From positions 1,240,001 through 1,304,000 of the forward strand of contig NZ_CP077800.1 of assembly GCF_019112525.1 (NCBI RefSeq): 64,000 bases of DNA. Reading direction: 5' to 3'. Made by a program: the position numbers and the translations under genes. Within the stretch, counting starts at the first letter, position 1, and each line of letters starts with the position of its first letter. The notes under the pieces are model-generated. The model was not told where the DNA came from and did no database searches. It worked only from the letters and a program-made list of their open reading frames with translations. Positions 5,716-55,112 of the stretch are shown piece after piece. The DNA is from Modestobacter sp. L9-4 (GTDB lineage: Bacteria > Actinomycetota > Actinomycetes > Mycobacteriales > Geodermatophilaceae).

Positions 5716-5796
5716 CGGCCCCCTTCCAGGGGCCGCCCCCGGCCTCCCTGCAGGGCCCCGCCGCGAGCTCGCTCGTGGCGGGGGGCAGGGAGGTCC
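5716..5796 (-). repeat. Stop-proximal palindromic repeat copy 2, with a second hairpin; likely rho terminator
   Basis: The element begins at the base after the rho TAA stop. Outer arms CCTCCCTGC (5785-5793 on the minus strand) and GCAGGGAGG (5743-5751) pair perfectly and enclose a core with CCGCC, GAGCGAGCTC and GGCGGG. A further hairpin, 5716-5722 with 5729-5735 (CGGCCCC/GGGGCCG), follows. It belongs to the dispersed family described in the findings. Its position and structure suggest a transcription terminator. Confidence 0.75.
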
Positions 5797-8268
5797 TTAT
5801 TCCTTCTCGCCCAGGCCCAGGGTCGTCTTCTGGACCTGCATGAGGAACTCGATGTTGTTGCGGGTCTTGCGCATGCGGTCGAGCAGCAGCTCCAGCGCCT
5901 GCTGGGGCTCCAGCGCCGACAGCACCCGGCGCAGCTTGATCACGATCGCCAGCTCGTCCGGGGACAGGAGGATCTCCTCCTTGCGCGTGCTGGAGGCGTT
6001 CACGTCGACGGCGGGGAAGACCCGCTTGTCGGCCAGCCGGCGGTCGAGCTTGAGCTCGGCGTTCCCGGTGCCCTTGAACTCCTCGAAGATGACCGTGTCC
6101 ATCGTGGAGCCGGTCTCGACCAGCGCCGAGGCGATGATCGTCAGCGAGCCGCCGTTCTCGATGTTGCGGGCGGCACCGAGGAAGCGCTTCGGCGGGTAGA
6201 GCGCCGTGGAGTCGACACCACCGGAGAGGATGCGCCCGCTGGCGGGGGCCGCCAGGTTGTAGGCGCGGCCCAGCCGGGTGATCGAGTCCAGCAGGACGAC
6301 GACGTCGTGGCCCATCTCGACCAGGCGCTTGGCCCGCTCGATGGAGAGCTCGGCGACCGTGGTGTGGTCGGCCGGCGGCCGGTCGAAGGTCGAGGCGATG
6401 ACCTCGCCCTTCACCGAGCGCTGCATGTCGGTGACCTCCTCGGGCCGCTCGTCGACGAGCACGACCATGAGGTGGACCTCGGGGTTGTTCACCGCGATGG
6501 CGTTGGCGATCGACTGCAGCACCATGGTCTTGCCGGCCTTCGGCGGGCTGACGATCAGGGCGCGCTGGCCCTTGCCGATCGGCATGACCAGGTCCATGAC
6601 CCGGGTGGTCATCAGGTGCGACTCGGTCTCCAGCCGCAGACGGTCCTGCGGGTAGAGCGGGGTCAGCTTGGTGAACTCCGGGCGGTCCTTGGCCTGCTCG
6701 GGGTCCAGGCCGTTGACCGACTCGAGCCGGACGAGGGCGTTGTACTTGTCCTTCTTCTCGCCCTCGCGGGGCTGGCGGACCGCACCGGTGATCGCGTCAC
6801 CGCGGCGCAGGCCGTAGCGGCGCACCTGGGCCAGGGAGACGTAGACGTCGTTCGGGCCGGTCAGGTAGCCGGAGGTGCGCACGAAGGCGTAGCTGTCGAG
6901 CACGTCCAGGATGCCGGCGACCGGCAGCAGGACGTCATCGTCGCTGACGGCCGGCTCGCCGGAGTCGAAGCGCTCACGGCCACCGGTGGTGGTGCCACCG
7001 CGCCGGTTGCGGTCGCGGTACCGGCGGCCCCGGCGGCCACGGCCGTCGAAGTCGTCGTCGTCCTCGTCGGGGCGGGCGTCGCGGTCGGCGCGCGGGGCGT
7101 CGGTGCGGGCACCGTCGCGGCTGTCGCGGGCACCGTCCCGGCCGTCGCGGGCACCGTCCCGGCCGTCGCGGGCACCGTCCCGGGCTCCCTCACGGCCGTC
7201 GCGGGCACCGTCGTTGCCGGTGCGGGCGCCGTCGGTGCGGTTGCGGTTGCGGCCGCCGCGCTCCTCGCCGTCCCGGGCGTTCTCCCGGCCGGCGCCGTCG
7301 CGGCCGCCGTCCCGCGCCGCGTCACGGGTGCGGTCCTCGCGGGGGCCACGCTCGTCGCGGTCGCCACTGTCACGGGCCGGACGCTCGCCACCATCGCGGG
7401 CCGGACGCTCGCCACCATCGCGGGCCGGACGCTCGCCACCGTCACGGGCCGGACGCTCGCCACCATCGCGGGCGGGACGCTCGGCACCGTCACGAGCCGG
7501 ACGCTCGCCACCATCGCGGGCGGGACGCTCGCCACCATCACGAGCCGGACGCTCGCCACCGTCACGGGCCGGACGGTCGCCACCGTCACGGGCGGCGCGC
7601 TCGCGGCGGGTCCGCGGCGGGCGCTCACCGTCGGTACGGGTCTCGGCCTGGGCGTCGCGAGCGCCGGCCTGGACCGGGGCCTCGTCGGCGGCGGCCGGCT
7701 CGGCCGGCGTCTCGACGGTGTCGGTGGTGGGGGCGCCGGCCGGGCGGCTGGCACCCCGGCGGCGACGGCCGGTGGGGGCGCCGTCGGAGCTGCTGTCGTT
7801 CGTGGTCTGCTCGGGGGCGCCGGTGACCGGGCCCCCGTTGGCGCCACCGCTGACCGGCGCCTCGAGCGGCGCGGCCGAGGTCGCGACGCCACCCGTGGGC
7901 GCGTTGTCGACGGCGGCGGTGTCGACGGCGGCGCTGTCGGTGGTGGGTGCGCTGCTGGGGGCGCTGTCCGAGCCGGCGTCGGCCGGGGTGCTGTCGGCGC
8001 GCGGCGCGGGGGTGTGCTCAGCGGCGGGGGCGGCGGAGCCGTTGCTGCCGGACTCGCCCACCTGCCGCTCGGAGATGGCGGCGACGAGGTCGCTCTTGCG
8101 CATCTTGCCGGTGCCGGGGATGCCCAGCTCGCCGGCCAGGCGCTGCAGCTCGGGCAGCAGCATCCCGGCCAGGCCGGTGCCGCGGCGGCGGGAGCGGGCG
8201 GCCGCTCCGTTGCCGGCGGCTGCCTCGTCGGACGGTGCGCCGTCGAGGAGGTCGGTGGTCTCGCTCAC
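5797..8268 (-). CDS. rho: Transcription termination factor Rho with long Arg/Gly/Asp-rich insertion
   Basis: An 823-aa hexameric RNA helicase that ends transcription. Order of parts: Rho_N helix domain (residues ~30-75), a low-complexity insertion (~75-440), the RNA-binding cold-shock domain ([20 protein letters not shown] onwards), then the RecA-type ATPase with Walker [15 protein letters not shown] (~580), Walker [16 protein letters not shown] and the [20 protein letters not shown] block. E. coli Rho is about 420 aa; actinobacterial Rho commonly carries such an insertion, known in M. tuberculosis and M. luteus to add RNA binding. Here the insertion has two repeat arrays: ten copies of an ERPARDGG octamer, and RDGARDG-type repeats. 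The start is GTG 8268 with AAGGA 8 nt upstream. Confidence 0.97.
7113..7215. repeat. Imperfect 21-bp tandem repeats inside rho
   Basis: A second in-frame array in the Rho insertion; units are close to gcgggcaccgtcccggccgtc. They encode the (R)[13 protein letters not shown] stretch. Unit length is a multiple of three, so copy-number change keeps the reading frame. Confidence 0.75.
7360..7608. repeat. 24-bp tandem repeat array inside rho (about ten units)
   Basis: In-frame minisatellite with unit close to gccggacgctcgccaccatc plus four bases, encoding ERPARDGG. Ten units can be counted in the protein, including a degenerate first ERAARDGG and a last ERPARDSG. Units differ mainly at synonymous or third positions (caccatcgcgg versus caccgtcacgg), so the array is not perfectly fresh. 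Length variation between strains would be expected. Confidence 0.9.
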
Positions 8269-8459
8269 GTACAGGTCCTTCCCTGCGGTGACCTGCGCCT
8301 ACCAGCGCAGGAGGTGACCCGCTCCCTGAGGCGAGAGCCCTGGTGTGGACGTCCGCGTCGGCGGGGAGTGCACGGGTCTGTGGAGGTGCGAGGAGGTCGG
8401 CGGCGACGGATCGCGGCCCACGCCCCGCTCGAGGCGCGCCCGGAGGCGGCTACGTGGTC

Positions 8460-8489
8460 AGCCTAGACACAGGCCTTCCTCGCCCACAA
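8460..8489 (-). promoter_or_regulatory. Predicted rho promoter and long leader
   Basis: On the minus strand a -35 TTGTGG (8489-8484) and a -10 TAGGCT (8465-8460) are 18 bp apart. Transcription would start near 8453 and leave a leader of about 185 nt before the rho GTG at 8268. The leader contains a 7-bp hairpin, CCTGCGC/GCGCAGG, at 8292-8311. Long leaders are typical of rho genes, which autoregulate by premature termination; that role is inferred here. Confidence 0.55.
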
Positions 8490-21953: not shown

Positions 21954-25802
<3,849 letters not shown>

Positions 25803-35215: not shown

Positions 35216-35258
35216 AGGCGGCGTCACAGCCGACGAGTGGCGAGCGACGCAGCGGCGT

Positions 35259-35328
35259 GGTGAGCTTCCTCACGAGCTCGACCGATCGTGGCGAACTGCT
35301 TGACAGTGCGTCGTCTCGTGAAAGCATC
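35259..35328 (+). promoter_or_regulatory. whiB1 control region: CRP-like palindrome and -35 box
   Basis: GGTGAgcttccTCACG at 35259-35274 fits the CRP/Cmr half-sites GTGA-N6-TCAC. A perfect -35 TTGACA lies at 35300-35305; the matching -10 17-18 bp on is poor (around 35323-35328), which fits an activator-dependent promoter. A second, 5-nt-spaced GTGA/TCAC pair overlaps that -10 (35319-35331). In M. tuberculosis whiB1 is controlled by the cAMP receptor Rv3676. The leader to the ATG would be ~120 nt. Confidence 0.5.
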
Positions 35329-35459
35329 ACAAGCAAGCAACCTGCCCGTAACGAGGCGGGCGGTCGCCGTTCAACGTACCGGGACACCGGTGCGCTGACC
35401 TGCGGGGGCGGTCTGGGGACCGGCGACCGACACCCGACGATACCGAGGAGTACACCGCC

Positions 35460-35711: not shown

Positions 35712-35715
35712 TCAA

Positions 35716-35772
35716 GGACCCCCTCCCTCCCCACCACGCGCTCCGCGCGCGGCGGGTCCCGGGAAGGGGCCG
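35716..35772 (+). repeat. Palindromic repeat copy 7 after whiB1
   Basis: GGACCCCCTCCC at the left and GGGAAGGGGCCG at the right form the outer stem with one mismatch. The core CACCACGCGCTCCGCGCGCGG is a variant of the family core. It begins 4 nt after the whiB1 stop. Confidence 0.75.
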
Positions 35773-35774
35773 AA

Positions 35775-35809
35775 CAGCAGGGCCGCACCCCTCGGGTGCG
35801 GCCCTGCTG
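35775..35809. terminator. Perfect bidirectional terminator between whiB1 and pdtaS
   Basis: CAGCAGGGCCGCACCC (35775-35790) and GGGTGCGGCCCTGCTG (35794-35809) pair over 16 bp around CTC. It lies 4 bp from the pdtaS stop codon on the other strand. Confidence 0.85.
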
Positions 35810-35812
35810 TCG

Positions 35813-37291: not shown

Positions 37292-37377
37292 GGTGCCGCC
37301 GAGCCTACGACCCGCGCCCGGACGCCCACCCGAGCGTGCTCGGGTGCGGGACGGGGAGGGTTCACTACCCTGCGCTG

Positions 37378-37863
37378 GTGCTGACGATCGACCGCGCCGT
37401 CCCGGCGGACTTCCCGCGCATCGCCGAGCTCACCGTCGGCGTCTACGAGGGCGAGGGGCTCGTCTCCCCCGAGTACGTGCCGACCCTCGCCGACGTGGCC
37501 GGCCGCGCCGACCGGGCGGACCTGCTGGTCGCCCGGGACGGCGACGGGCGGATCGTCGGCAGCGTGGCGCTCGTGCTGGCCGGCGACTTCGGCGAGGTCA
37601 CCCGGTCACCGGACGAGGCGGCGTTCCGGATGCTGGCCGTGGACGCCGGCGCCCGCGGGCAGGGGGTCGGCGAGGCGCTGGTGCGCACCTGCCTGGACCG
37701 GGCACGCGCCGCCGGGCGGGCACGCATGGTGCTGTCGACCGGGGAGCTGATGACGGCCGCGCACCGGCTGTACGAGCGGCTGGGCTTCCAGCGGCTGCCG
37801 GAGCGGGACTGGGCACCGCGGCCCGGCATCGACCTGCGGGTCTACGTCCTCGACCTCGGCTGA
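37378..37863 (+). CDS. GNAT N-acetyltransferase
   Basis: A 161-aa GNAT with acetyl-CoA loop DAGARGQGVGEALV (~residue 92) and C-terminal AAHRLYERLGFQRLPERDW, of the RimI-like type. The substrate is unknown. GTG 37378 lies 6 nt after TACCCT (37366-37371) with no Shine-Dalgarno: probable leaderless mRNA. It is divergent from pdtaS. Confidence 0.87.
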   Translation: MLTIDRAVPADFPRIAELTVGVYEGEGLVSPEYVPTLADVAGRADRADLLVARDGDGRIVGSVALVLAGDFGEVTRSPDEAAFRMLAVDAGARGQGVGEALVRTCLDRARAAGRARMVLSTGELMTAAHRLYERLGFQRLPERDWAPRPGIDLRVYVLDLG

Positions 37864-37932
37864 CGACCCACCCGGCAGTCAGGCCCCGCCCACGGGCCCA
37901 CCCCGGGATCGCGAGAGGACCGGGGTCCTCCG

Positions 37933-38154
37933 TCAAGACTGGACGGTGGCGATGAGGTCGCCCTCCTGGAGGACCTCGCCCTCGGTCACGTGCAGCTCCG
38001 CGACGGTGCCGGCCCGCTCGGTGAGCACCGGGATCTCCATCTTCATCGACTCGAGGACCACCAGCGTGTCGCCCGCGGCGACCTCGGTGCCGGGAGCCAC
38101 GAGCACCGTCACCACGCTGGAGACCATCTCGGCGTGGATCTCCTCGACCGCCAC
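37933..38154 (-). CDS. Single-domain biotin/lipoyl carrier protein (TB7.3 type)
   Basis: A 73-aa biotinyl domain. The biotinylated Lys lies in VLESMKMEIPVLTERAGTV. It is closely similar in layout to mycobacterial TB7.3 (Rv3221c), a free-standing biotin carrier also found between pdtaS and the sigH-rshA locus. Start GTG 38154 with GAGGAGG 6-8 nt upstream. Its acyl-CoA carboxylase partner is unclear; the adjacent gene encodes a defective biotin-carboxylase-like protein. Confidence 0.92.
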   Translation of the reverse strand: MAVEEIHAEMVSSVVTVLVAPGTEVAAGDTLVVLESMKMEIPVLTERAGTVAELHVTEGEVLQEGDLIATVQS

Positions 38155-38252
38155 CGGTGCCTCCTCCTCGCCCCGCCCGCCGGAGCCGGCGGACAGCACA
38201 TGAAAGCACGGCCGCACCCGGGCCGGTCCGCCCCTCTGCTGGGCAGGCGCCC

Positions 38253-39299
38253 TCAGCAGTCGGGGACGAGGACCCCGGCGATGCGCTGCAGCACGCCGCA
38301 GACCGCGGCCCCGTCGTGCGGGACCCCGGTCTCCGGCAGGCCGGTCAGGACGTCGGTCGCCGCACTCGCCGCCCGGGCCGGGCTGGGCCCACCGGCACTG
38401 ACGGTCGTCAGCAGCGCGTCGTACCAGCCGTCGAGCCGGTCGCCGGGCTCGTAGCCGCTGTCGGCGACGACCTCGGGGCCCAGCAGCGGACGGCGCCCGG
38501 AGCGGGGCGCGATGTCCGGCAGCCGCCCGGTGACCCGGCCCGCCGTCCCGGGCGGGAGCGTGGACCGCAGCTGCACGGCGACCGCGGCCCGCGGCGTGCC
38601 CGGCACGGGTGCGGCGTCGGCGGGCAGCCCGGCGGCGCTGCGCAGCGCCAGCTCGACCGCGTCGACACCGTGCGCCCGCTCCAGCACGGCCATGTCCAGG
38701 GAGAAGCCGGCGGCGACCTCGGCGAGCTCGCCGTCGGGGTCGATGCCCACGCTGACCAGCCCGCGCCAGCCGACCTCGGGCAGGCGGCGCGCAGCCGCCG
38801 GCAGCGGCCCCAGCCCCTCGCTGGGCGTCCAGGACACCCGCGGGGTGCCACCGGCCCGGTCGCGCAGCACCGGGGTGACGTGGTGCAGCCCCTCCGCGGT
38901 CACCCAGGCCAGGAACCCGCGCTCGCTGGCCGGCTCGACGCCGTCGCCCCCCAGCCGCTCGAGGACGTCGGCGGGCGGGCCCACCCAGATCAGGCCGGCG
39001 TCGGCCACCGCGGCGGCCAGCCGGGCGCTGCCGGCCAGCGCGGGCGGGACGGGCAGCACGGCGTCGACCCGGGTACGGCGGGCGGCCTCGACCAGCCGGC
39101 GCACGTCGAGGTAGGACTGGTCGGCGGGCGCGGGACCCAGCAGGACCGACTCGTCGGCCAGCCGCACGTGCCGGGCGTCGCGCTCCGGCTCGGAGTAGAC
39201 GGCCACGGCCTTCACGCCCAGGCGGCCACAGGCACGGACCACCGCACAGGCCATCGGCCCCCGGCCGGCCACCAGCACGCTCTCGACTGCCTGGACCAC
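38253..39299 (-). CDS. Biotin-carboxylase-like protein lacking an ATP-grasp core (probable pseudoenzyme)
   Basis: A 348-aa protein. Residues 1-110 match the biotin carboxylase N-terminal fold (VLVAGRGPMACAVVRACGRL, AVAVYSEPERDARHVRLADE, LIWVGPPADVLERLGGDG). Normal enzymes have ~450 aa and a glycine-rich ATP-grasp domain with catalytic Lys/Glu/Arg; here that region is much shortened, and I cannot find the Gly-rich loop or ECSIQRR-type motif. The usual HPGYGFLSEN is replaced by LPVPPALAGS. A weak C-terminal carboxylase domain remains. The frame is fully open, so it is retained, perhaps as a structural partner of the carrier 98 nt downstream. GTG start at 39299. Confidence 0.7.
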   Translation of the reverse strand: MVQAVESVLVAGRGPMACAVVRACGRLGVKAVAVYSEPERDARHVRLADESVLLGPAPADQSYLDVRRLVEAARRTRVDAVLPVPPALAGSARLAAAVADAGLIWVGPPADVLERLGGDGVEPASERGFLAWVTAEGLHHVTPVLRDRAGGTPRVSWTPSEGLGPLPAAARRLPEVGWRGLVSVGIDPDGELAEVAAGFSLDMAVLERAHGVDAVELALRSAAGLPADAAPVPGTPRAAVAVQLRSTLPPGTAGRVTGRLPDIAPRSGRRPLLGPEVVADSGYEPGDRLDGWYDALLTTVSAGGPSPARAASAATDVLTGLPETGVPHDGAAVCGVLQRIAGVLVPDC

Positions 39300-39536
39300 G
39301 TCGTCCCCCCGTTCCCCACTGACCCGCCCATCCTCCCTCAGGCCCGCACGGGTGGGCACGGCGGCACGACCCGGCCGGGGTGCCGGCCCGGCCACCGCCG
39401 CCGGGCGGTCGACCCCGGACGTGAGACCCTGGGCAGGTCACCAGGGCCGGGGCCGGGGTGCGCGAGCACCCCTCCCGGCCGTCGATCAGCTCCTGGGCCG
39501 GAGGGCCCGGTGGCGACTGAGGAGAGGAGGGCAGCG

Positions 39537-39611
39537 ATGTCCAAGCGTGGACGCAAGCGGCGCGCCCGCAAGAAGAGCGGCGCCAACCACGGCAAGCGCC
39601 CCAACGCCTGA
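39537..39611 (+). CDS. Ribosomal protein bL37, 24 aa
   Basis: MSKRGRKRRARKKSGANHGK then RPNA and a stop. This very basic 24-residue peptide matches the actinobacterial bL37 seen in mycobacterial 50S structures, including the NHGKRPNA end. It is often missed by gene callers. A strong GGAGAGGAGGG Shine-Dalgarno ends 5 nt before the ATG. It lies alone on the plus strand between the biotin-carboxylase-like gene and rsrA, followed by a terminator. The 237-bp upstream gap (39300-39536) holds no other gene; I see no clear promoter there. Confidence 0.85.
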   Translation: MSKRGRKRRARKKSGANHGKRPNA

Positions 39612-39619
39612 ACGCACGA

Positions 39620-39662
39620 GCCCCCCTGGACCGCCGCTCATCGCGGGACGGTGCAGGGGGGC
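39620..39662. terminator. Bidirectional terminator between bL37 and rsrA
   Basis: GCCCCCCTG (39620-39628) pairs with CAGGGGGGC (39654-39662), with an inner ACCG/CGGT pair in the loop. It lies 8 nt after the bL37 stop and 26 nt from the rsrA stop on the other strand. Confidence 0.75.
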
Positions 39663-39688
39663 CTGTGGTGCGTCCAGGGGGCGGCCGC

Positions 39689-40039
39689 CTACGCGGTCGG
39701 TCGCTCCGCGGGGACGCTGAACGTCTCGACGCTGGCCTGCTCGACCCGCACCTGGGTGCCGTCGTCGTCGAAGGAGACCGTGGTCAGCTGGACCTTGATC
39801 CGGTCGCGCAGGCCCACCGGCGTCGGGTCACCGCCGCACCGACGGCGGATGAGCGCCTTGAACTCCTGCTCGATGCCGAACTGCCGCAGGCACGGCGAGC
39901 AGTCCTCGAGGTGCTCGGCGATGACCGCGCGCCGCTCGGGCCCGGTCTCGTTGTCCAGGAACTCGAAGACGTGCGACAGGACGTCGTCGCACGAGGTGAT
40001 CTCGTCGTCGCCGTGCAGCTCGTGAGCGTCGTTGCTCAT
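39689..40039 (-). CDS. rsrA: Mycothiol-system zinc anti-sigma factor (RsrA/RshA)
   Basis: A 116-aa ZAS-family anti-sigma factor. The zinc and redox switch is the HLEDCSPC motif (His-x3-Cys-x2-Cys) near residue 43, with an upstream Cys at residue 17 (EITSCDDVLSHV). Under thiol oxidation a disulfide forms, zinc leaves and SigR is released. The ATG at 40039 overlaps the sigR stop as TGATG, as in Streptomyces and mycobacteria. Confidence 0.95.
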   Translation of the reverse strand: MSNDAHELHGDDEITSCDDVLSHVFEFLDNETGPERRAVIAEHLEDCSPCLRQFGIEQEFKALIRRRCGGDPTPVGLRDRIKVQLTTVSFDDDGTQVRVEQASVETFSVPAERPTA

Positions 40040-40740
40040 CAGTGCGTCGCCTCTTCCGCTGCCCCGGCACGGACGAAGCCGCGCTCCCGGGCGTAGTCGG
40101 CCAACAGCTTCTGCAGACCGCGACGGCCGCGGTGCAGGCGGGACATCACCGTGCCGATGGGCGTGCCCATGATCTCGGCGATCTCCTTGTAGGCGAACCC
40201 CTCGACGTCGGCGAGGTAGACCGCCATCCGGAAGTCCTCCGGCAGCTGCTGCAGCGCCTCCTTGATGTCGGAGTCGGGCAGGTGGTCCAGCGCCTCGATC
40301 TCCGCGGAGCGCAGCCCGCTGGAGGTGTGCTCCTCAGCGGCGTACAGCTGCCAGTCCTGCACCTGCTCGGTGGGGTACTGCTGCGGCTGGCGCTGCTTCT
40401 TGCGGTAGCTGTTGATGTAGGTGTTCGTCAGGATCCGGTACAGCCACGCCTTGAGGTTGGTGCCCTCGGCGAACTGGTGGAAGGCGGAGTACGCCTTGAC
40501 GAACGTCTCCTGCACCAGGTCCTCGGCGTCGGAGGGGTTGCGGGTCATCCGCAGCGCCGCCGGGTAGAGCTGGTCCAGGTAGGGCAGGGCGTCGCGCTCG
40601 AACCGGGCGTCGCGCTGGGCGCGGGTCTCGGCGAGCTCGCTGCGGCTGCCGTCCGCGCGCGCCTCCGGCGTCGGCTCGGGGGTCTGCTCGGCCAGCGCCG
40701 CCGTCGTGGCGGGGCTGTCGACTGCGGGCTCGTCAGGCAC
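40039..40740 (-). CDS. sigR: RNA polymerase sigma factor SigR/SigH (thiol-oxidative stress)
   Basis: A 233-aa ECF sigma factor. Region 2: [34 protein letters not shown] and [20 protein letters not shown]. Region 4: [17 protein letters not shown] then [20 protein letters not shown]. It directs RNA polymerase to oxidative, heat and thiol-stress genes. GTG 40740 has AGAGGAC ~8 nt upstream. The frame stays open to a GTG at 40884, which would add 48 residues; the autoregulatory promoter lies immediately before that start, so a longer isoform is likely under stress. Confidence 0.96.
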
Positions 40741-40893
40741 CGACCGTCCTCTCTGCGGCGCCCGGGAACGGACGACCACGTCGGTCGATCCTAGCCGGGA
40801 GCGGCCGGGTCGGCCGGGGGGACGGCGGACGGGTGCCGACCCGCGCGCTGTGCGCGCCGGTGCGCCCGGGACTGTGCTGCTCACGGTCGGTGC

Positions 40894-40920
40894 AACGGCA
40901 CGTGCCCGGGGTCGATTCCC
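40894..40920 (-). promoter_or_regulatory. SigR-dependent promoter of sigR
   Basis: On the minus strand -35 GGGAAT (40920-40915) and -10 GTT (40896-40894) are separated by exactly 18 nt, an exact match to the SigR/SigH consensus GGGAAT-N18-GTT. Initiation would fall about 40885-40887, next to the GTG at 40884, which opens the extended sigma frame. Confidence 0.85.
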
Positions 40921-40986
40921 CGATCGCGCGCCTTCCTCGCCGGGGCCGTTCCACAGGCACGGGCGCGGGTCCTAGGCTGCTGCGCC

Positions 40987-41466
40987 GTGGCGGCGACACC
41001 GGCGGTGCGGGCACTGGAGCGGGCCGGGGTGGTGTGCTCGCTGCACGAGTACGACCCGGCCGACGGGGCGGAGGGGCACGGCTACGGGGAGGTTGCCGCG
41101 GCGGCCCTGGGCGTCGACCCGTCGCGGTTGTTCAAGACCCTGGTCACCCGGGTGGACGGCGCGCTCACCGTGGCCGTCGTCCCGGTCAGCGGGTCACTCG
41201 ACCTCAAGGCGCTGGCCGCGGCGGCCGGCGGGCGGAAGGCCGCGATGGCCGAGCCCGCCGACGCCGAGCGGGCCACCGGCTACGTGCGCGGCGGGATCAG
41301 CCCGCTGGGCCAGCGCAAGGCGCTGCCCACCGTGGTCGACGAGAGCGCCCTGGCCCTGGAGACGGTCCTGGTCAGCGCCGGGCGCCGCGGCCTGCAGGTC
41401 GAGCTGGCCCCGGCCGACCTGGTGCGGCTCACCCGCGCCCGCACCGCCCCGATCGCCCGGGGGTGA
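40987..41466 (+). CDS. ybaK: Cys-tRNA(Pro)/tRNA deacylase, YbaK/EbsC family
   Basis: A 159-aa trans-editing protein that hydrolyses mischarged Cys-tRNA(Pro). Conserved blocks: LFKTLVTRVDG with the key Lys (~residue 50) and GYVRGGISPLGQRKALPTVV. GTG 40987 lies 8 nt after TAGGCT (40973-40978): probable leaderless mRNA. It is divergent from sigR; there is no functional link beyond possible thiol/cysteine relevance. Confidence 0.93.
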   Translation: MAATPAVRALERAGVVCSLHEYDPADGAEGHGYGEVAAAALGVDPSRLFKTLVTRVDGALTVAVVPVSGSLDLKALAAAAGGRKAAMAEPADAERATGYVRGGISPLGQRKALPTVVDESALALETVLVSAGRRGLQVELAPADLVRLTRARTAPIARG

Positions 41467-41467
41467 C

Positions 41468-41488
41468 CCCCGGGCCGCGGGCCCGGGG
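41468..41488. terminator. Hairpin terminator between ybaK and the spermidine-synthase-like gene
   Basis: CCCCGGGCC/GGCCCGGGG, 9 bp, GCG loop, starting 1 nt after the ybaK stop; convergent genes. Confidence 0.7.
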
Positions 41489-41499
41489 CGGCCCCTGCG

Positions 41500-43029
41500 T
41501 CAGCCGTAGGGGGTGAGCAGCTGGTCGACGGGGGCGAAGTCGTCGGTGAGGACGTCGGCGTCCCCGATGAAGGAGGTGAGCTGCTCCCCCGCGGCGACCT
41601 GCCAGGCCAGTCCGCGGTCGGCCATCGCGGCGGCGATCGCCTCGGCGGGCAGCGGGCGCCGGGACGCCACGGCCACGACGTTGCCGCCGTCCTCGCCGGC
41701 CAGCACCGGCGCCCGGGCCAGCAGCACCACCTCGGGGAAGACCGACCGCAGGGTGGCCAGCTCGGCCCGGACGAAGTCCAGCGGCGGGTGGTCGATCAGG
41801 TTGACCGCGTAGACGCCGTCCTCGGCGAGCGCGGCGTCGACCATGTGCAGCGCCTCGGCCGTGGTCAGCTGCCAGGGCACCGAGAGGCCACCGAAGGCGT
41901 CGCCCACCACGAGGTCGCGTGCGCCGTCGGGCTCGGACTGCAGCGCCACCCGGGCGTCGCCGACCTGAACCTCGAGCTCGGGCGAGGTGCGCAGCCCGAG
42001 CTGCTGCTCGTCGACGTCGACCACCCCGGGGTCGACCTCCAGCACCCGGCTGACCGTGCCCGGCCGCACCTCCGCGAGGTAGCGCGGCAGCGTCGCGCCG
42101 CCGCCCCCGACGTGCAGCGCGGACAGCGGGGCGCCCGCCGGGGCCATCGCGTCGGTGACCGAGGCGATGGCCTGGACGTACTCGAACTCCAGGTGCGTGG
42201 GGTCGGCGAGGTCGACGTAGGAGTGCCGCAGCGTGTCCAGCACCAGCACCCGCCCGGTGCTGCGCTCGGGGTCGGCCTCCACCCGGGCGCAGTGGTAGGA
42301 CGTCTCGGTCTCGCACGGGGTGGGGGCGACCGCGGCGAGCACCGGCGCGGCCACGGCCAGCACCAGCAGGCCGGCGGGCAGCCGCGCGGTGACCCCGGGG
42401 CTGCTCCGGCGCAGCAGCAGCGCCAGGACCAGCCCGACCACCACCACCAGCAGCCCGGTGCCCACGAGGATGACGCTGCTGGGCAGCAGCGCCACCAGCA
42501 CGAAGCCGGTGGCGAACGTGGCCACGATCCCCCCGAGCGTGCCGATGCCCGACAGCCGACCGACCACCGACCCGGTCTCGGCCAGGCTGCCCAGCTGCAG
42601 CGCGACCACCATCGGCGGCACCGCCGACAGCAGCGCGGCCGGCACGATGACCGCCACCGCGGCCAGCACCAGCACGTTCCCGGCCGCCGCGCCGGTGAGC
42701 AGCTCGCCGGCGAAGCGCACCAGCGGCAGCACGGCGACCACGAGCGCCCCGCCGGCGACCAGCAGCGGGGCGATCAGCCGCCGCGGGTCGGTGCGGTCGG
42801 CGGCGGCGCCACCGGCCCAGGCGCCGATCGCGATCGCCGCCAGCGCGAAGCCGATGACCGCCGTGTTGGTCTGCAGGGTGATGCCCACGTAGGGCGCGAT
42901 GAGCCGCAGGCCCACGACCTCGAGCACCAGCACCGAGCCCGAGGCCAGGAAGGTGACCCCGGCGGCGATCCAGTCCGGCAGCGCCCGGGACCCGGCCGGC
43001 GGCGGTCCGGCAGCGGTCGTGCCCGCCAC
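41500..43029 (-). CDS. Membrane protein with C-terminal spermidine-synthase-like methyltransferase fold
   Basis: A 509-aa fused protein. Residues ~20-245 hold about seven membrane helices (VTFLASGSVLVLEVVGLRLI, the major-facilitator-like part of this family). Residues ~270-509 are a Rossmann domain with LHVGGGGATLPRYLAEV (nucleotide loop) and VGDAFGGLSVPWQLTTAE (the synthase active-site area). Relatives are annotated as fused MFS/spermidine synthase, but the polyamine activity is unproven. GTG 43029 is 1 nt after the SRAP stop, so the pair is an operon. Confidence 0.88.
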   Translation of the reverse strand: MAGTTAAGPPPAGSRALPDWIAAGVTFLASGSVLVLEVVGLRLIAPYVGITLQTNTAVIGFALAAIAIGAWAGGAAADRTDPRRLIAPLLVAGGALVVAVLPLVRFAGELLTGAAAGNVLVLAAVAVIVPAALLSAVPPMVVALQLGSLAETGSVVGRLSGIGTLGGIVATFATGFVLVALLPSSVILVGTGLLVVVVGLVLALLLRRSSPGVTARLPAGLLVLAVAAPVLAAVAPTPCETETSYHCARVEADPERSTGRVLVLDTLRHSYVDLADPTHLEFEYVQAIASVTDAMAPAGAPLSALHVGGGGATLPRYLAEVRPGTVSRVLEVDPGVVDVDEQQLGLRTSPELEVQVGDARVALQSEPDGARDLVVGDAFGGLSVPWQLTTAEALHMVDAALAEDGVYAVNLIDHPPLDFVRAELATLRSVFPEVVLLARAPVLAGEDGGNVVAVASRRPLPAEAIAAAMADRGLAWQVAAGEQLTSFIGDADVLTDDFAPVDQLLTPYG

Positions 43030-43030
43030 G

Positions 43031-43777
43031 TCAGAAGAGGGCCGGCTGGTCGGCCGGCTCGCTGACCTGCTCCTGGCGGGCGGTGAGCTGCGGCCCGTTG
43101 TTCGCCACGTTGCCCACGGCCGCACCGACCGGCCGGATCTCCAGCCGCTCGACGTACTCCGGCGGGGTCGGCGCGGCGACCGCCGTGACGTCCTGCTGGG
43201 CGGGGTCCAGCCAGTCGGCCCAGCGCTCGCGCGGCAGCACCAGCGGCATCCGCGGGTGCACCTCGGCCAGCGCGCCGACGGCGGGGGCGGTGACCACGGT
43301 GCACGTGTAGAGCCGGTCCTCGCCGCGGCCCCACACCTCCCAGAGGCCGGCGAACGCCAGCCCCGAGCCGTCCTCGGGGGTCACGTAGTACGGCTGCTTG
43401 CCCGGGGCGTCGTGCCGCGGCGCCCACTCGTACCAGCCGTCGGCGGGCACCAGGCAGCGGCGGCCGGCGGCGGCGGTGCGGAAGGCGGGCTTCTCGGTCA
43501 GCGACTCGACCCGGGCGTTGAGCATCCGGTTGCCGATCGAGACGTCCTTGGCCCAGGAGGGCACCAGGCCCCAGCGCACGACCCGCAGCTCGCGGTGCCC
43601 ACCACCGGTGAGCGCGCCCTCGGCGTCCCGCTCCCTGGCGTGCCGCACCACGTACACGTCCTTGGTGGGCGCCACGTTGTGGTCGGCCGGCAGCGGCGCC
43701 TGGCCCTCGGCGACGACGGCCTCGAACTCGACCACCAGGTCCTCCGGACGGCGGCTGGCGGCGTACCGACCACACAT
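43031..43777 (-). CDS. SOS response-associated peptidase (SRAP/YedK/HMCES)
   Basis: A 248-aa SRAP protein. The catalytic Cys2 (MCGRYA) forms a thiazolidine link to abasic sites in single-stranded DNA and so protects stalled forks. The active-site Asn/Pro in HNVAPT, Glu in GWYEWAPR and His in EVHPRMPLVL are present. ATG 43777. Mycobacterial synteny (Rv3226c beside aroA and rsgA) supports the call. Confidence 0.94.
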   Translation of the reverse strand: MCGRYAASRRPEDLVVEFEAVVAEGQAPLPADHNVAPTKDVYVVRHARERDAEGALTGGGHRELRVVRWGLVPSWAKDVSIGNRMLNARVESLTEKPAFRTAAAGRRCLVPADGWYEWAPRHDAPGKQPYYVTPEDGSGLAFAGLWEVWGRGEDRLYTCTVVTAPAVGALAEVHPRMPLVLPRERWADWLDPAQQDVTAVAAPTPPEYVERLEIRPVGAAVGNVANNGPQLTARQEQVSEPADQPALF

Positions 43778-43942
43778 GACGGCTCCTCCCCGGGCCTCCC
43801 CTGTGCAGGCGGCCCGCCTGCGAGCGTAGGGGCGACCACCGACGACCGGAGGGTCCGCGCCCTGCCGTCCTGCCCCGTCCCGGTGTCCTCCGGCACGGCC
43901 GACGTGGTCGTCGCGTCCGCAGACCGCGGCCGGCAGGGCAGG

Positions 43943-45235
43943 ATGGCCACCATGGTCGAGGTCTGGGCACCCCCGTCGCGGCACACCCCGGTGGACGCGG
44001 TGGTCACCCTGCCCGGCTCCAAGTCGCTCACCGCCCGTGCCCTGGTGCTGGCCGCGCTCGCCGCCGGCCCGAGCCGCCTGGTGCGCCCGCTGCGGGCCCG
44101 CGACACCGACCTGATGGCCGCCGGGCTCCGGGCGCTCGGCGTCGCGGTCGCCGAGGACGGCGCCGACTGGCTGGTCACCCCCGGCGAGCTGCGCGGCCCG
44201 GCCGAGGTCGACGCCGGGCTGGCCGGCACGGTCCTGCGCTTCCTGCCCCCGGTGGCGGCGCTGGCCACCGGCCCGGTCCGGCTGGACGGCGACCCGCGGC
44301 TGCGCGACCGGCCGAACGCGGGGCTGATCACCGGCCTGCGCGACCTCGGGGTCCGCATCGACGACGACGGCCGCGGGCGGGCGCCGTTCACCGTGCACGG
44401 CACCGGCGCCGTCCGGGGCGGAGCGGTCACCGTCGACGCCAGCGAGTCCAGCCAGGTGGTGTCGGGCCTGCTCCTGGCCGCGGCGCGCTACGACGAGGGC
44501 ATCACGCTCACGGTGGCCGGCAGCCTGCCCTCGCTCCCCCACGTGGAGATGACGGTGCGCACGCTGACCGAGCACGGCGTGCGGGTCACCGCCGTCGACG
44601 GCGGCTGGTCGGTGGCGCCCGGCCCCGTCGCGCCGCTGGACCGGGTGGTCGAGCCCGACCTGTCCAACGCCGCCCCGTTCCTGGCCGCGGCGCTGGTCAC
44701 CGGCGGCCGGGTCACCGTGCGCGACTGGCCCGCCGACACCACCCAGCCCGGCGCGCAGCTCGACCGGCTGCTCACCGCGATGGGCGCCGACGTCGTCCGC
44801 ACCGAGGTGGGCCTGCAGGTCACCGGGGGCGACCGAGTCGCCCCCCTGGACGCCGACCTCGGCGAGGTCGGCGAGCTGACCCCGGTGCTGGCCGCGCTGT
44901 GCGCCCTGGCCGACGGGCCGTCGCGGCTGACCGGCATCGCCCACCTGCGCGGCCACGAGACCGACCGGCTGCAGGCCCTCGACGAGGTGCTCACCGCCGT
45001 CGGCGCCTCGGTCGAGCAGCTGCCCGACGGGCTGGTGGTCACGCCGGGGACGTTGCGCCCGGCGCGGCTGGACTCCTACGCCGACCACCGCATGGTGCAC
45101 GCCGCGGCGCTGCTCGGGCTGGCGGTCGACGGAGTCGAGGTCACCGACCCGGGCGCGGTGGCCAAGACGCTGCCCGACTTCACCGACCGCTGGGCCGCCC
45201 TCGTGGGAGCCGGGCTGCCGGAGGTCGTGGCGTGA
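43943..45235 (+). CDS. aroA: 3-phosphoshikimate 1-carboxyvinyltransferase (EPSP synthase)
   Basis: A 430-aa shikimate-pathway enzyme. Substrate-binding PGSKSLTARALVLAALA (~residue 27), GTVLRFLPPVAAL (~residue 98), LRDRPNAGLI, EPDLSNAAPFLAAAL, GHETDRLQAL and SYADHRMVHAAALLGL are in order. ATG 43943 and ATG 43952 are both possible; neither has an ideal Shine-Dalgarno. rsgA overlaps its stop as GTGA. It is divergent from SRAP. Confidence 0.95.
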   Translation: MATMVEVWAPPSRHTPVDAVVTLPGSKSLTARALVLAALAAGPSRLVRPLRARDTDLMAAGLRALGVAVAEDGADWLVTPGELRGPAEVDAGLAGTVLRFLPPVAALATGPVRLDGDPRLRDRPNAGLITGLRDLGVRIDDDGRGRAPFTVHGTGAVRGGAVTVDASESSQVVSGLLLAAARYDEGITLTVAGSLPSLPHVEMTVRTLTEHGVRVTAVDGGWSVAPGPVAPLDRVVEPDLSNAAPFLAAALVTGGRVTVRDWPADTTQPGAQLDRLLTAMGADVVRTEVGLQVTGGDRVAPLDADLGEVGELTPVLAALCALADGPSRLTGIAHLRGHETDRLQALDEVLTAVGASVEQLPDGLVVTPGTLRPARLDSYADHRMVHAAALLGLAVDGVEVTDPGAVAKTLPDFTDRWAALVGAGLPEVVA

Positions 45236-46251
45236 GCGGGCGGCGGATGGACAGCCGGTCCGACGAGGACGACGTCCGCGTCCGGGCGTCCCGGCACGGC
45301 TCACGGCCGCGCACCCGCACCCGGCCGGCCCACGAGGAGGCCGTGCCCGGGCTGGTGGTCGCAGTCGACCGCGGCCGGATGACGGTGCGCGTGCAGGGGC
45401 CGGAGGGCACGCCCGTCGAGGTGACCGCGATGCGCGCCCGGGAGCTGGGCAAGCACGGCGTGGTCGTGGGTGACCGGGTCCGGGTGGTGGGCGACACCTC
45501 CGGGCGCACCGACAGCCTGGCCCGCATCGTCACCATCGCCGAGCGGGTCACCTCGCTGCGCCGCACCGCCGACGACACCGACCCCACCGAACGGATCGTG
45601 GTGGCCAACGCCGACCAGCTGGTGGTGGTCACCTCGATCGCCGACCCCGAGCCGGCGCTGGGCTTCCTCGACCGCTGCCTGGTCGCCGCCTACGCCGGCG
45701 GGCTCACCCCGCTGCTGGTGCTCACGAAGAACGACCTGGCCAGCGCCCAGCCGCTGCTGGACCGCTACGCCGGCCTGGACGTCGACGCGGTGCCGATGTC
45801 GCCCGAGGCACCGCTGGAGGACCTGGTGACCCGGCTGCGCGACAAGACGAGCGTGCTGGTCGGGCAGTCCGGCGTGGGCAAGTCCACGCTGTTCAACCGG
45901 CTGGTGCCCGGCGCCTTCCGGGCCACCGGCGACGTCAGCAAGATCGGCAAGGGGCGGCACACGTCGTCCTCGGCGGTGCTGCTGGACCTGCCCGGTGGCG
46001 GCACGCTCATCGACACCCCCGGGATCCGCTCCTTCGGCCTGGCGCACGTCACCGCCGGCGACGTCCTCGCCGCCTTCGACGACCTGGCCGAGGCCTCGGT
46101 CGACTGCCCGCCGATGTGCGGGCACACCACCGAGGACCCCGGCTGCGCCCTCGACCCCTGGGCCGCCGCCGGCCCACCGGCCCGTGCCGAACGCCTGGCC
46201 AGCTTCCGCCGCCTGCTCGCCGCCGTCGGCCAGCTCACCCCCGGCCACTGA
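45232..46251 (+). CDS. rsgA: Small ribosomal subunit biogenesis GTPase RsgA
   Basis: A 339-aa circularly permuted GTPase. After an OB domain, the G motifs come in the order G4 LTKND, G1 VGQSGVGKSTLFN, G3 LIDTPGIRSFG, diagnostic of RsgA/YjeQ. The zinc knuckle CPPMCGHTTEDPGCAL is near the C-terminus. It acts in late 30S assembly. GTG 45232 overlaps the aroA stop; an internal ATG at 45247 is an alternative. Repeat copy 8 starts 4 nt after its stop. Confidence 0.95.
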   Translation: MSGRRMDSRSDEDDVRVRASRHGSRPRTRTRPAHEEAVPGLVVAVDRGRMTVRVQGPEGTPVEVTAMRARELGKHGVVVGDRVRVVGDTSGRTDSLARIVTIAERVTSLRRTADDTDPTERIVVANADQLVVVTSIADPEPALGFLDRCLVAAYAGGLTPLLVLTKNDLASAQPLLDRYAGLDVDAVPMSPEAPLEDLVTRLRDKTSVLVGQSGVGKSTLFNRLVPGAFRATGDVSKIGKGRHTSSSAVLLDLPGGGTLIDTPGIRSFGLAHVTAGDVLAAFDDLAEASVDCPPMCGHTTEDPGCALDPWAAAGPPARAERLASFRRLLAAVGQLTPGH

Positions 46252-46255: not shown

Positions 46256-46350
46256 GAACCCCCTCTCCCGCCACTTCGCAGGCTCACGGCGGGGCCCTGA
46301 GAGGGGGCCGAGGGACCGCGGCGAGTTCGCGAGTCGTGGAGAGAGGGCGC
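46256..46350. repeat. Head-to-head palindromic repeats between rsgA and peptidase E (copies 8a and 8b)
   Basis: 8a (46256-46310) has arms CCCCCTCTC (46259-46267) and GAGAGGGGG (46299-46307), perfectly paired, in rsgA orientation. 8b (46311-46350) read on the minus strand starts at the peptidase E stop with CCCTCTCTCCACGACTCGCG and the AACTCGCCGCGG core. The two share the central GAGAGGGGGCCG. Together they can terminate both convergent genes. Confidence 0.75.
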
Positions 46351-47682: not shown

Positions 47683-47868
47683 ATGGTGAGCCCGATCGAC
47701 ATCCAGAAGGCCCTGTCCGGCATCGACTACCCGGCGAAGAAGGACGACGTCGTGAAGCACGCGGAGTCCCACGGCGGCGGCGACGACGTGCTCGAGGCGC
47801 TCAAGGGCATCGACGACCAGGAGTACGACACCCCGGCGGCGGTCAGCAAGGCCGTCTTCAAGGACTGA
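47683..47868 (+). CDS. DUF2795 family small protein
   Basis: A 61-aa protein, VSPIDIQKALSGIDYPAKKD near its start and EYDTPAAVSKAVFKD at its end: the DUF2795 pattern of two short helices. The function is unknown; relatives are common and often multicopy in actinobacteria. ATG 47683 with TAGGCA 12 nt upstream and no clear Shine-Dalgarno. Repeat copy 9 follows 4 nt after the stop. Confidence 0.85.
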   Translation: MVSPIDIQKALSGIDYPAKKDDVVKHAESHGGGDDVLEALKGIDDQEYDTPAAVSKAVFKD

Positions 47869-47872: not shown

Positions 47873-47928
47873 GGACCCCGTCTCCCCCCACCTCTCGCGA
47901 GCTCGGGGCGGGACCTGAGAGGGGGCCG
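47873..47928 (+). repeat. Palindromic repeat copy 9 after the DUF2795 gene
   Basis: GGACCCCGTCTC at the left and GAGAGGGGGCCG at the right give the outer stem with one mismatch. The core CCACCTCTCGCGAGCTCGGG is conserved. Confidence 0.8.
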
Positions 47929-48021
47929 CTCCAGCACGTCACCACGCTCGGAGCGGGCTAGGGGACGGGGCCACAGCTCGGCGGGCGGGGCCGTCGCGGT
48001 CCCGCCCGCTAGGTTCTGGCC

Positions 48022-52540: not shown

Positions 52541-53938
52541 GTGCAGTACGCCGAGTCCGTCATCGAGCTCATCGGTGACACCCCCCTGGTGCGGCTGCGG
52601 TCGGTCACCGCCCACCTGGGGCCGGATGCGCCCCTGGTGCTGGCCAAGGTGGAGTACCTCAACCCCGGCGGCTCGGTGAAGGACCGCATCGCCGTGCGCA
52701 TGGTCGAGGCCGCCGAGGCCTCCGGTGCGCTCCAGCCGGGCGGCACGATCATCGAGCCGACCAGCGGCAACACCGGCATCGGCCTGGCGCTGGTCGCACA
52801 GACCCGCGGCTACAAGTGCGTCTTCGTGTGCCCGGACAAGGTGGGCGCGGAGAAGATCAACGTGTTGCGGGCCTACGGCGCCGAGGTGCACGTCTGCCCC
52901 ACCGCCGTCGACCCGGCCGACCCGCGCTCCTACTACTCCGTCTCCGACCGGCTGGCCCGGGAGACCCCCGGCGGCTGGAAGGCCGACCAGTACGCCAACC
53001 CGGCCAACCCGCAGTCGCACTACGAGACCACCGGGCCGGAGATCTGGGCGCAGACCGAGGGCCGGGTCACGCACTTCGTCACCGGTGCGGGCACCGGCGG
53101 CACCATCTCCGGCGTCGGCCGCTACCTCAAGGAGGCCAGCGGCGGCCGCGTGCACGTCACCGGCGCCGACCCCGAGGGCTCGGTCTACTCCGGCGGCACC
53201 GGGCGGCCCTACCTGGTCGAGGGCGTCGGCGAGGACTTCTGGCCCGAGGCCTACGACAAGTCGATCGCCGACGAGATCATCGCGGTCTCCGACGGCGACT
53301 CCTTCGCCATGACCCGGCGGCTGGCCCGCGAGGAGGGGCTGCTGGTCGGCGGCTCCTGCGGCATGGCGGTGGTCGCGGCCCTGCGCGTCGCCGAGCGGCT
53401 CACCAAGGACGACGTCCTGGTCGTGCTGCTGCCCGACGGCGGCCGCGGCTACCTGAACAAGATCTTCAACGACGAGTGGATGGCCGACTACGGCTTCCTG
53501 ACGGCGTCGGGCGGGGAGACCGTCGGCGAGCTGCTGGACGCCAAGTCCGGCGCCACCCCGACGCTGGTGCACACCCACCCGACCGAGACGGTCCGCGACG
53601 CGATCGACATCCTGCGCGAGTACGGCGTCAGCCAGCTGCCCGTGGTCAAGGCCGAGCCGCCGGTCACCGCCGGTGAGGTGGTCGGCTCGGTGGCGGAGAA
53701 GGCGCTGCTGGACGCCCTGTTCACCGGTGCCGCCACGCTGTCGGACCCGGTCGAGCGGCACATGTCGCCGCCGCTGCCGATCATCGGCTCCGGCGAGCCG
53801 GTGACCGCCGCGGTGAGCGCGCTGGGCGACGCCGACGCGCTGCTGGTGCACGTCGACGGCAAGCCCGCCGGCGTGGTCACCCGGCAGGACGTGCTCGGTC
53901 ACCTGGTCGGTCTGCCGGCGCCTACGGTCGTGTCATGA
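52541..53938 (+). CDS. cbs: Cystathionine beta-synthase
   Basis: A 465-aa PLP enzyme joining serine and homocysteine. The PLP Lys is in NPGGSVKDRIAVRM (~residue 45), the substrate loop is PTSGNTGIGLAL, and GAGTGGTISGVGRYL binds the PLP phosphate. Residues ~335-460 are two CBS domains (VRDAIDILREYGVSQLPVV), as in the mycobacterial enzyme. Cysteine synthase is less likely because of the CBS domains and partner gene. GTG 52541 with GAGGAGG 5 nt upstream. It overlaps metB as ATGA. Confidence 0.93.
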   Translation: MQYAESVIELIGDTPLVRLRSVTAHLGPDAPLVLAKVEYLNPGGSVKDRIAVRMVEAAEASGALQPGGTIIEPTSGNTGIGLALVAQTRGYKCVFVCPDKVGAEKINVLRAYGAEVHVCPTAVDPADPRSYYSVSDRLARETPGGWKADQYANPANPQSHYETTGPEIWAQTEGRVTHFVTGAGTGGTISGVGRYLKEASGGRVHVTGADPEGSVYSGGTGRPYLVEGVGEDFWPEAYDKSIADEIIAVSDGDSFAMTRRLAREEGLLVGGSCGMAVVAALRVAERLTKDDVLVVLLPDGGRGYLNKIFNDEWMADYGFLTASGGETVGELLDAKSGATPTLVHTHPTETVRDAIDILREYGVSQLPVVKAEPPVTAGEVVGSVAEKALLDALFTGAATLSDPVERHMSPPLPIIGSGEPVTAAVSALGDADALLVHVDGKPAGVVTRQDVLGHLVGLPAPTVVS

Positions 53939-55074
53939 GCGGCTTCAACACACGCGCGATCCACGCCGGCCAGGAGCCCGACCCGGCCACCGGCGCGGTC
54001 ATCCCGCCGATGCACCTGACCACCACCTACAAGCAGGACGGCGTGGGCGGGCTGCGCGGCGGCTACGAGTACAGCCGCAGCGCCAACCCCACCCGCGACA
54101 CCCTGCAGACGGCGTTGGCCAGCCTGGAGCAGGGCACCCGCGCGATGACGTTCGCCTCCGGCCTGGCCGCCGAGGACGTCCTGCTGCGCACCGTCTGCCG
54201 GCCCGGCGACCGGATCGTGCTGGGCGGGGACGCCTACGGCGGCACCTACCGGCTGATCTCCAAGGTGCAGGAGCCCTGGGGCGTCGGGCACGTCCCCGTC
54301 GACCTCAACGACCTGGACGCCGTCCGGGAGGCGGTCGCGCCGGAGACGACCCGGGTGCTGTGGTGCGAGACGCCCAGCAACCCGCTGCTCAACATCGCCG
54401 ACATCGCCACGCTCGCGGAGATCGCGCACGCCGCGGGCACGCTGCTGGTCGTCGACAACACCTTCGCCAGCCCCTACCTGCAGCAGCCGCTGACGCTGGG
54501 CGCCGACGTGGTCGTGCACTCCACGACGAAGTACCTGGGCGGGCACTCCGACGTCGTCGGTGGTGCGCTGGTCGTCTCCGACGCCGAGCTCGGCGAGCGG
54601 CTGGCGTACCTGCAGAACGCTGCGGGCGCGGTCAACGGCCCGTTCGACGCCTGGCTGGTGCTGCGCAGCCTCAAGACCCTCGGTGTGCGCATGGACCGGC
54701 ACAGCGCCAACGCCGGCCGCATCGCCGAGTGGCTGCTGGAGCACTCCGCGGTCTCCGCCGTCCTGTACCCGGGGCTGCCGGAGCACCGCAACCACGAGGT
54801 CGCGGCCAGGCAGATGTCCCAGTTCGGCGGGATGCTGTCGTTCCGGCTCAAGGCCGGCGAGGAGGCCGCGCTGCGGGTCTGCGAGCGCACGCGGGTGTTC
54901 ACCCTGGCCGAGTCCCTCGGCGGCGTCGAGTCGCTCATCGAGCACCCGCACCGGATGACCCACGCCAGCGCCGCCGGCTCCCCGCTGGAGGTGCCCGCCG
55001 ACCTGGTGCGCCTGTCGGTCGGCATCGAGGACGTCGACGACCTGCTCGCCGACCTCGACCAGGCCCTGGGCTGA
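53935..55074 (+). CDS. metB: Cystathionine gamma-synthase/lyase family
   Basis: A 379-aa Cys/Met-metabolism PLP enzyme. The PLP Lys is in VVHSTTKYLGGHSDVVGG (~residue 200), with AMTFASGLAAE and LPEHRNHEVAARQMSQFGGM conserved. It could act as gamma-synthase or gamma-lyase; paired with cbs a transsulfuration role is certain, the direction is not. The ATG overlaps the cbs stop. Confidence 0.92.
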   Translation: MSGFNTRAIHAGQEPDPATGAVIPPMHLTTTYKQDGVGGLRGGYEYSRSANPTRDTLQTALASLEQGTRAMTFASGLAAEDVLLRTVCRPGDRIVLGGDAYGGTYRLISKVQEPWGVGHVPVDLNDLDAVREAVAPETTRVLWCETPSNPLLNIADIATLAEIAHAAGTLLVVDNTFASPYLQQPLTLGADVVVHSTTKYLGGHSDVVGGALVVSDAELGERLAYLQNAAGAVNGPFDAWLVLRSLKTLGVRMDRHSANAGRIAEWLLEHSAVSAVLYPGLPEHRNHEVAARQMSQFGGMLSFRLKAGEEAALRVCERTRVFTLAESLGGVESLIEHPHRMTHASAAGSPLEVPADLVRLSVGIEDVDDLLADLDQALG

Positions 55075-55078
55075 GGAA

Positions 55079-55112
55079 GGACCCCTGCGCCCCTCACCCT
55101 GCACGGGGGCCG
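55079..55112 (+). repeat. Truncated palindromic repeat copy 10 after metB
   Basis: GGACCCC then a shortened core CCCTCACCCTGCACGGGGGC and CGG; the usual GAGCTCGCGG part is missing. It begins 4 nt after the stop codon. Confidence 0.55.

Follow-up and report, generated by a model that had tools for sequence, protein, structure and literature searches.

The stretch of DNA analyzed here, hereafter the window, comprises 64,000 nucleotides (positions 1,240,001-1,304,000) of the single-contig 4.22-Mb genome of Modestobacter sp. L9-4 (Geodermatophilaceae), and it carries a family of 57-bp imperfect palindromes that lie close behind stop codons. Seven copies were significant in a leave-one-out test, in which a profile built from the other six window copies had to find the seventh again (E 7.6e-11 to 3.1e-4; 17.2-38.4 bits); across 20 third-order Markov surrogates of the window, the best score per surrogate was at most 9.5 bits. 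On the minus strand, the TAA of rho (5797-8268, minus strand; NCBIfam TIGR00767) is immediately followed by the GGACC end of the copy at 5740-5796 (76.8 bits; leave-one-out E 5.5e-10). A second minus-strand copy, at 25996-26054 (80.1 bits; E 7.6e-11), is inverted: it lies between two plus-strand genes, with its GGCC end abutting the TGA at 25993-25995 and its GGACC end facing away from that gene, and the same inverted copy is present in a related Modestobacter genome, G013. The remaining copies are on the plus strand. That at 30551-30607 (64.7 bits; E 1.5e-9) lies behind the stop of a nickel superoxide dismutase (NiSOD) gene (30143-30547; Sod_Ni) and is followed by an independent GC hairpin, and that at 33533-33589 (70.8 bits; E 1.5e-8) fills the spacer of two convergent genes with stops at 33530-33532 and 33588-33590. 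Three further copies begin 4 nt behind a CTGA stop: 35716-35772 (63.1 bits; E 7.9e-5) behind a whiB open reading frame (ORF; 35460-35711, PF02467, E 6e-28), 46256-46310 (62.3 bits; E 3.1e-4) behind an RsgA-like GTPase gene (45247-46251; RsgA_GTPase) convergent with the gene at 46351, and 47873-47928 (70.1 bits; E 1.7e-9) behind a small conserved gene (47683-47868). The proximity to stop codons claimed in the original prediction thus holds for all seven, one of them being inverted (25996-26054) and one depending on the whiB ORF (35716-35772). At the gathering score, Rfam recognized only three tRNAs in the window and no family that matches the repeat.

Read on its better-folding strand, the repeat follows the consensus CGGCCCC(N)n-AGGG-N-CCCGCC...GGTGGG-GG-(N)n GGGGTCC. 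The outer stem covaries freely, the inner stem is conserved and contains G.U pairs at fixed positions, and the tip varies. The internal loop of this strand (AGGG/GG) is nearly invariant (A in 45/52 copies; G in 52/52, 49/52 and 49/52), and columns 23 and 47 form a fixed wobble, G.U in 42/52 copies. In the alignment of these 52 copies, which was fitted to the model structure and therefore somewhat favors it, standard pairs made up 94.9% of 983 pair cells, and double changes occurred in 12 of 19 pairs, with 108 cells compared with 28.2 in shuffled alignments (0 of 500 shuffles as high); shifting the partner by 1-3 columns left only 2-15 double-changed cells. The common layout and the co-varying outer arms first described from the window therefore extend to all 52 copies, with strong covariation in the outer stem. 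Stable hairpins form in both strands; the complement of the strand originally described is the more stable one in 7/7 window copies, an effect of a small number of invariant G.U positions. With three fixed columns set aside, G.U and A.C cells were about equally frequent (16 vs 11; 6 vs 9 in tandem copies), which implies no preference for one folded strand, and strand-specific folding was accordingly discarded as proof of a function in RNA or in single strands. The combination of a variable stem, an invariant loop and a conserved wobble would resemble an element that is read as a folded strand.

A covariance model seeded with the seven window copies found 145 matches at E ≤ 1 in the L9-4 genome, representing 143 distinct places (two matched the same place on both strands), a lower bound with 150 of 10,057 candidates scored; the count at E ≤ 1e-5 was 133. 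Each of the 17 genomes in the genus search had matches, between 9 and 156 at E ≤ 0.01, the genomes with the two smallest counts being about 70% complete, and 28 of 38 genomes in the family sample contained 5-147 matches at E ≤ 1e-5. Nine of the ten family genomes without matches belong to genera g63, g65 and g66, and the tenth (G199) to genus g18, where its sisters carry 70-147 copies, so that copy number spans 0 to 147 inside one genus. G199 and its sisters, together with g63, g65 and g66, offer a natural contrast for finding a helper. In a sample of 200 genomes from the order, 27 of 28 listed family members and 3 of 172 other genomes had matches, a split that assumes the listing to be sorted by kinship. 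The three outside genomes (G073, G083 and G169) had one or two matches each, which would be either contamination or transfer. Those in G073 (C17:104-160 and 2604-2657; L202 and L206) were strong and shared a stretch of 2.6 kb at one end of an 89-kb contig, and strong matches were also seen on G083:C6 and on G169:C132 and C165, two assemblies rated 4% contaminated. Around rsgA-like genes, 43 of 80 loci carried 60 matches, and 0 of 8 loci of other actinobacteria did. Searched with one copy as query, plasmid and phage records gave no match. This distribution bears out the earlier proposal of a lineage-specific family with many copies.

Position was analyzed in 462 kb of L9-4 sequence, consisting of the window and 20 stretches picked as copy-rich, with genes from a codon-usage gene caller and 92 non-overlapping matches, 54 of them strong. 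Among the strong copies, 47/54 started 0-5 nt behind a same-strand stop codon when reliable genes were counted, and 49/54 with all called genes, or 50/54 when the whiB case (35716) is added; random intergenic placement would give 1.6%. The enrichment at gene ends expected of this family is thus pronounced. None of the three outcomes named beforehand as refuting the original prediction (few copies genome-wide, no enrichment at gene ends, no significant outer-stem covariation) was observed. A distance of exactly 4 nt was found for 43/92 matches, all of them (43/43) behind TGA, and among those scoring at least 28 bits the stop read CTGA in 39/40, compared with a C before the TGA in 201/298 repeat-free ends (Fisher 1e-5). 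The commonest form is CTGA-NGAA-GGACC, with a 4-nt spacer, the flank at 40 copies being CTGA followed by [GC]G[AG]A; at other distances, the stops were mixed (10 TGA, 7 TAG and 4 TAA, n = 21). Fourteen of the 75 matches with at least 28 bits had no stop within 5 nt; they include the whiB case and several second units in tandem pairs. The same flank was seen in relatives. Of 60 matches from other genera or species, 44 began at a distance of 1-5 nt from the preceding stop and another three at -1 to -3, with TAG-AA-GGACC as the second common form.

The NGAA spacer is part of the repeat, and the stop codon is part of the host. GAAGG occurred within 14 nt of the stop at 23/58 repeat-bearing ends vs 2/329 repeat-free ends, which lends no support to the notion that NGAA was there beforehand as a target or a ribosome-binding site. 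Since most orthologues lacking the repeat terminate at the identical codon, the stop is attributed to the host, and the idea of a repeat that supplies its own stop gains no support; the exceptions are the 41005 end, which is one codon longer in G013, and shifts at the short gene 25810. In spacers tolerant of insertion, about 40 of 176 CTGA stops were occupied at the 4-nt offset vs 0 of 96 other CTGA words; the 40 and the 0 were assigned by hand, and not each of the 40 is necessarily among the 176. A mobile hairpin guided by stop codons, recognizing a CTGA stop or translation termination rather than the mere CTGA word and moved by an agent other than a known REP (repetitive extragenic palindromic) transposase, would be one tentative explanation, which we consider possible at well under even odds.

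Turnover was followed by comparing six Modestobacter genomes at 61 orthologous gene ends, 331 end-by-genome cases in all. Fifteen ends, in 12 spacers, carried a copy in at least one genome; of these 12 spacers, 11 had no detectable copy in one or more of the genomes, and only the rho spacer was filled in all six. Clean single-genome gains were found at 56026, where L9-4 reads TGA and then GCGCCCGCCGGG and G013 reads TGA, the repeat and then TGCCCGCCGGG, and in the 41005/41500 spacer, where a copy in G013 only fills the gap of two convergent stops. The 32750/33588 and 45247/46351 spacers contain differing subtypes and both orientations among the genomes, so that one spot appears to have been occupied more than once, or one copy to have replaced another. 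Nearest-neighbor copies at unrelated places differ at 3 to 13 of 65 columns (median 6), and, judged by such likeness, near-identical copies at unrelated sites show that the element has multiplied. Pairs or arrays of alternating orientation would be the mark of BIMEs; examples seen here are direct tandem arrays and, in genome G010, a convergent spacer whose copies differ in orientation. One array (L032:3680-3992) consists of six head-to-tail units that recur about every 52 bp, the first at the normal spacing from its stop.

Taken together, these results are best explained if the repeat is a non-autonomous mobile palindrome of Geodermatophilaceae, similar to REPs, whose landing sites lie behind the stop codons that close transcription units; we assign this reading a probability of about 0.68. 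Copies would arise through a copy-and-insert process that requires a folded single strand, and insertion would either target the stop codons that end transcription units or leave survivors only there. A Y1 HUH transposase still encoded by these genomes would not be the agent, which may have been lost or gone unrecognized. Several observations weigh against this interpretation. No mobilizing enzyme was found, in a search confined to one family (Y1_Tnp); transposition left no direct mark that could be seen, and the clean site 56026, the one read by eye, showed no evident target duplication; and the 52 copies include no identical pair, so that no recent burst is seen. A MITE of an insertion-sequence (IS) family would have such a duplication and terminal repeats that match a parent IS, the search for a parent having covered Y1_Tnp. 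About 13 of the 75 matches with at least 28 bits do not start behind a stop, some of them second tandem copies. Several of the sites scored as absent are decayed copies (G013 and G015 at 32750/33588, L9-4 at 37933, G216 at 30143 and G010 at 28916), and loss therefore explains part of the polymorphism. Single-strand transposons can show a replication-strand bias, which was absent here (98/139 copies behind leading-strand genes vs 275/423 genes, p 0.10, with dnaA at 2,228,139 as origin); a bias computed from a mid-chromosome cut (95/139 vs 253/423, p 0.02) was dropped once the dnaA origin was used.

The original prediction regarded the repeats as terminators or mRNA 3' ends. If they were functional elements of this kind under selection, alike through gene conversion and placed at gene ends by function instead of targeted insertion, their distribution among spacers would be accounted for: tandem spacers with a residual gap of at most 20 nt contained a repeat in 1/84 cases vs 43/176 for wider gaps, and 22/66 convergent spacers were occupied. 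This avoidance of operon-like junctions is as expected from selection against harm or from an end-of-unit role, and the stable hairpins in both strands and the covariation of the outer stem would likewise fit a terminator. However, the GC hairpin with U-tract of an intrinsic terminator was found at 0/4 copies in 25000-44999 and at two sites elsewhere vs 1.4 in shuffles, a pattern that leaves room for U-less terminators. The ends of the NiSOD gene and of gene 58416 have an independent GC hairpin in relatives with or without the repeat, and the empty NiSOD orthologue in G010 retains it; the repeat is therefore not needed as the only terminator there. Mean folding z-scores were -1.58 where the repeat was present (n = 36), -1.30 in repeat-lacking orthologues, decayed copies included (n = 49), -0.54 at other gene ends (n = 80) and -0.10 in coding sequence (n = 80), and values below -2 were reached by 29% of these repeat-lacking orthologues vs 17% of average gene ends. 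Moreover, the copy is often missing in related species, the strand corresponding to the upstream mRNA is the less stable of the two, and a terminator needs no fixed 4-nt spacing. Terminator action as proposed is thus not borne out, and its selected-function version appears unlikely. A settled hairpin would probably alter translation termination or the 3'-end stability of the upstream gene as a side effect, since it starts 4 nt from the stop, within the footprint of the terminating ribosome, and the mRNA 3' end would then begin with this structure. The 0-5 nt spacing would also suit elements domesticated for translation termination, as proposed for E. coli REPs at most 15 nt from a stop, in which the hairpin would be struck by the terminating ribosome and lower upstream output. 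Although such a role would be compatible with a mobile palindrome, the unrelated nature of the upstream genes (rho, NiSOD, RsgA-like, whiB and a pyridoxal-phosphate (PLP) enzyme) and the differences between species make no common regulation apparent, and we consider it quite unlikely.

The covariation itself might be mutational, if polymerase template switching copies one arm onto the other and neither folded RNA nor folded DNA is selected. PMC8794818 reports that hairpins can arise and be preserved through template switching between the arms of an inverted repeat. Few half-changed cells occur in the outer helix (20/412 non-Watson-Crick: 8 G.U, 6 A.C and 6 other), G.U being about as frequent as A.C, and the rho copies of L9-4 and G010 differ by two fully compensated pairs, all of which would favor arm copying; yet the fixed wobbles persist where such copying would erase them, and close copies show single-sided changes (52 single and 64 double in the outer helix, among 102 close pairs). 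We hold this origin of the covariation to be doubtful, if by no means negligible. The earlier statement that compensated change means a selected folded RNA was in any case too strong, given that template switching of DNA also keeps the arms matched and that G.U and A.C occur at similar frequency. Biased transformation might also concentrate an uptake-sequence-like motif at gene ends, where palindromes with a conserved core would then be found, as exemplified by Neisseria. Whole 57-bp units, clean empty sites, an orientation rule relative to the stop and varying arms are unlike a fixed short word, and make this very improbable.

Among known systems, the mobile palindrome proposed here is closest to REPs, a class known chiefly from Proteobacteria and attributed to REP-associated tyrosine transposases (RAYTs). 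As an imperfect palindrome with more than 100 copies per genome, and with only 1/54 strong copies overlapping a called gene by more than 5 nt, it is a REP in the broad sense. A RAYT had been named as the helper to look for; the corresponding profile (Y1_Tnp, RAYT/IS200, PF01797) had no hit in L9-4 (0/1) or in 96 family genomes (0/96), and the same profile was positive in 5/14 control genomes; this candidate is not supported. According to PMC3733652, GTAG/CGTC REPs are high-copy imperfect palindromes between convergent or unidirectional genes, near upstream gene 3' ends, some of whose ends provide stop codons, and CGTC REPs occur without a dedicated transposase. Our repeat shares the high copy number, the imperfect palindrome and the nearness to upstream 3' ends, but it is longer (57 bp vs 20-40 bp) and has a mode of exactly 4 nt behind CTGA and a conserved internal loop. 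The GTAG/CGTC tag is not conserved at its ends; a few TAG-stop copies in relatives read GTAG-AA-GGACC, the G not being favored. The host here is an actinomycete (Actinomycetota), and the term Actinobacteria does not appear in the text of PMC3733652. Like the RAYT-associated REPs described in PMC2817692, the repeat has a short unpaired 5' extension, although this reads NGAA instead of GTAG or GTGG and Y1_Tnp was not found in 96 family genomes. Hairpins close behind stops are also known from E. coli: of 4,072 REPs predicted there, 446 are no more than 15 nt from a stop (PMC12306157), unlike the concentration within 5 nt seen here. Architecture and placement fit the REP kind; the tag, the size, the taxon, the absent RAYT and the 4-nt CTGA offset are unlike described members. 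Mycobacterial interspersed repetitive units (MIRUs) are another short actinobacterial repeat said to insert at gene-end TGA sites; unlike the palindrome described here, they consist of direct repeats that carry small ORFs and lie between coupled genes. Integron attC sites have GTTRRRY/RYYYAAC boxes at the palindrome ends; inspection of the consensus by eye showed no such boxes, and the gene keeps its place where the repeat is lacking, and attC sites were rejected as candidates. The literature search, which covered mostly papers outside subscription and included PMC9686282, yielded no account of this repeat.

A family-wide, RAYT-less, REP-like repeat in Actinomycetota with a nearly fixed offset from the stop would allow the spread of RAYT-less palindromes to be tested, and hairpins this near to stop codons make action on translation termination a testable question. 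The repeat also marks true gene 3' ends and could aid annotation, as for the whiB ORF at 35460-35711, which the codon-usage gene caller missed and which the repeat behind its stop exposed.

Beyond the seven significant copies, the window contains weaker traces. The original prediction counted at least nine intact or near-intact copies, of which two are weak: an enlarged plus-strand copy at 35134-35214, 5 nt behind a TAG stop (19.6 bits, E 0.14), and a possible decayed second copy on the minus strand at 46311-46350, in the same convergent spacer as 46256-46310, where 46316-46339 scored 18 bits (E 0.36) and is not significant alone. As for the two copies considered decayed, 1826-1849 fell short of significance by itself (6.6 bits, E 0.62), and 55079-55112 was recovered on the plus strand (28.2 bits, E 0.001). 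The latter lacks the core and retains the CTGA-GGAA-GGACC flank; the gene in front of it (53935-55074), whose CTGA stop is 4 nt away, encodes a PLP enzyme of Cys/Met metabolism. A CTCCAGCACGTCACC stretch, perhaps the damaged arm of a second unit, recurs immediately after copies, at window positions 47929-47960 and at L107:4693-4790.

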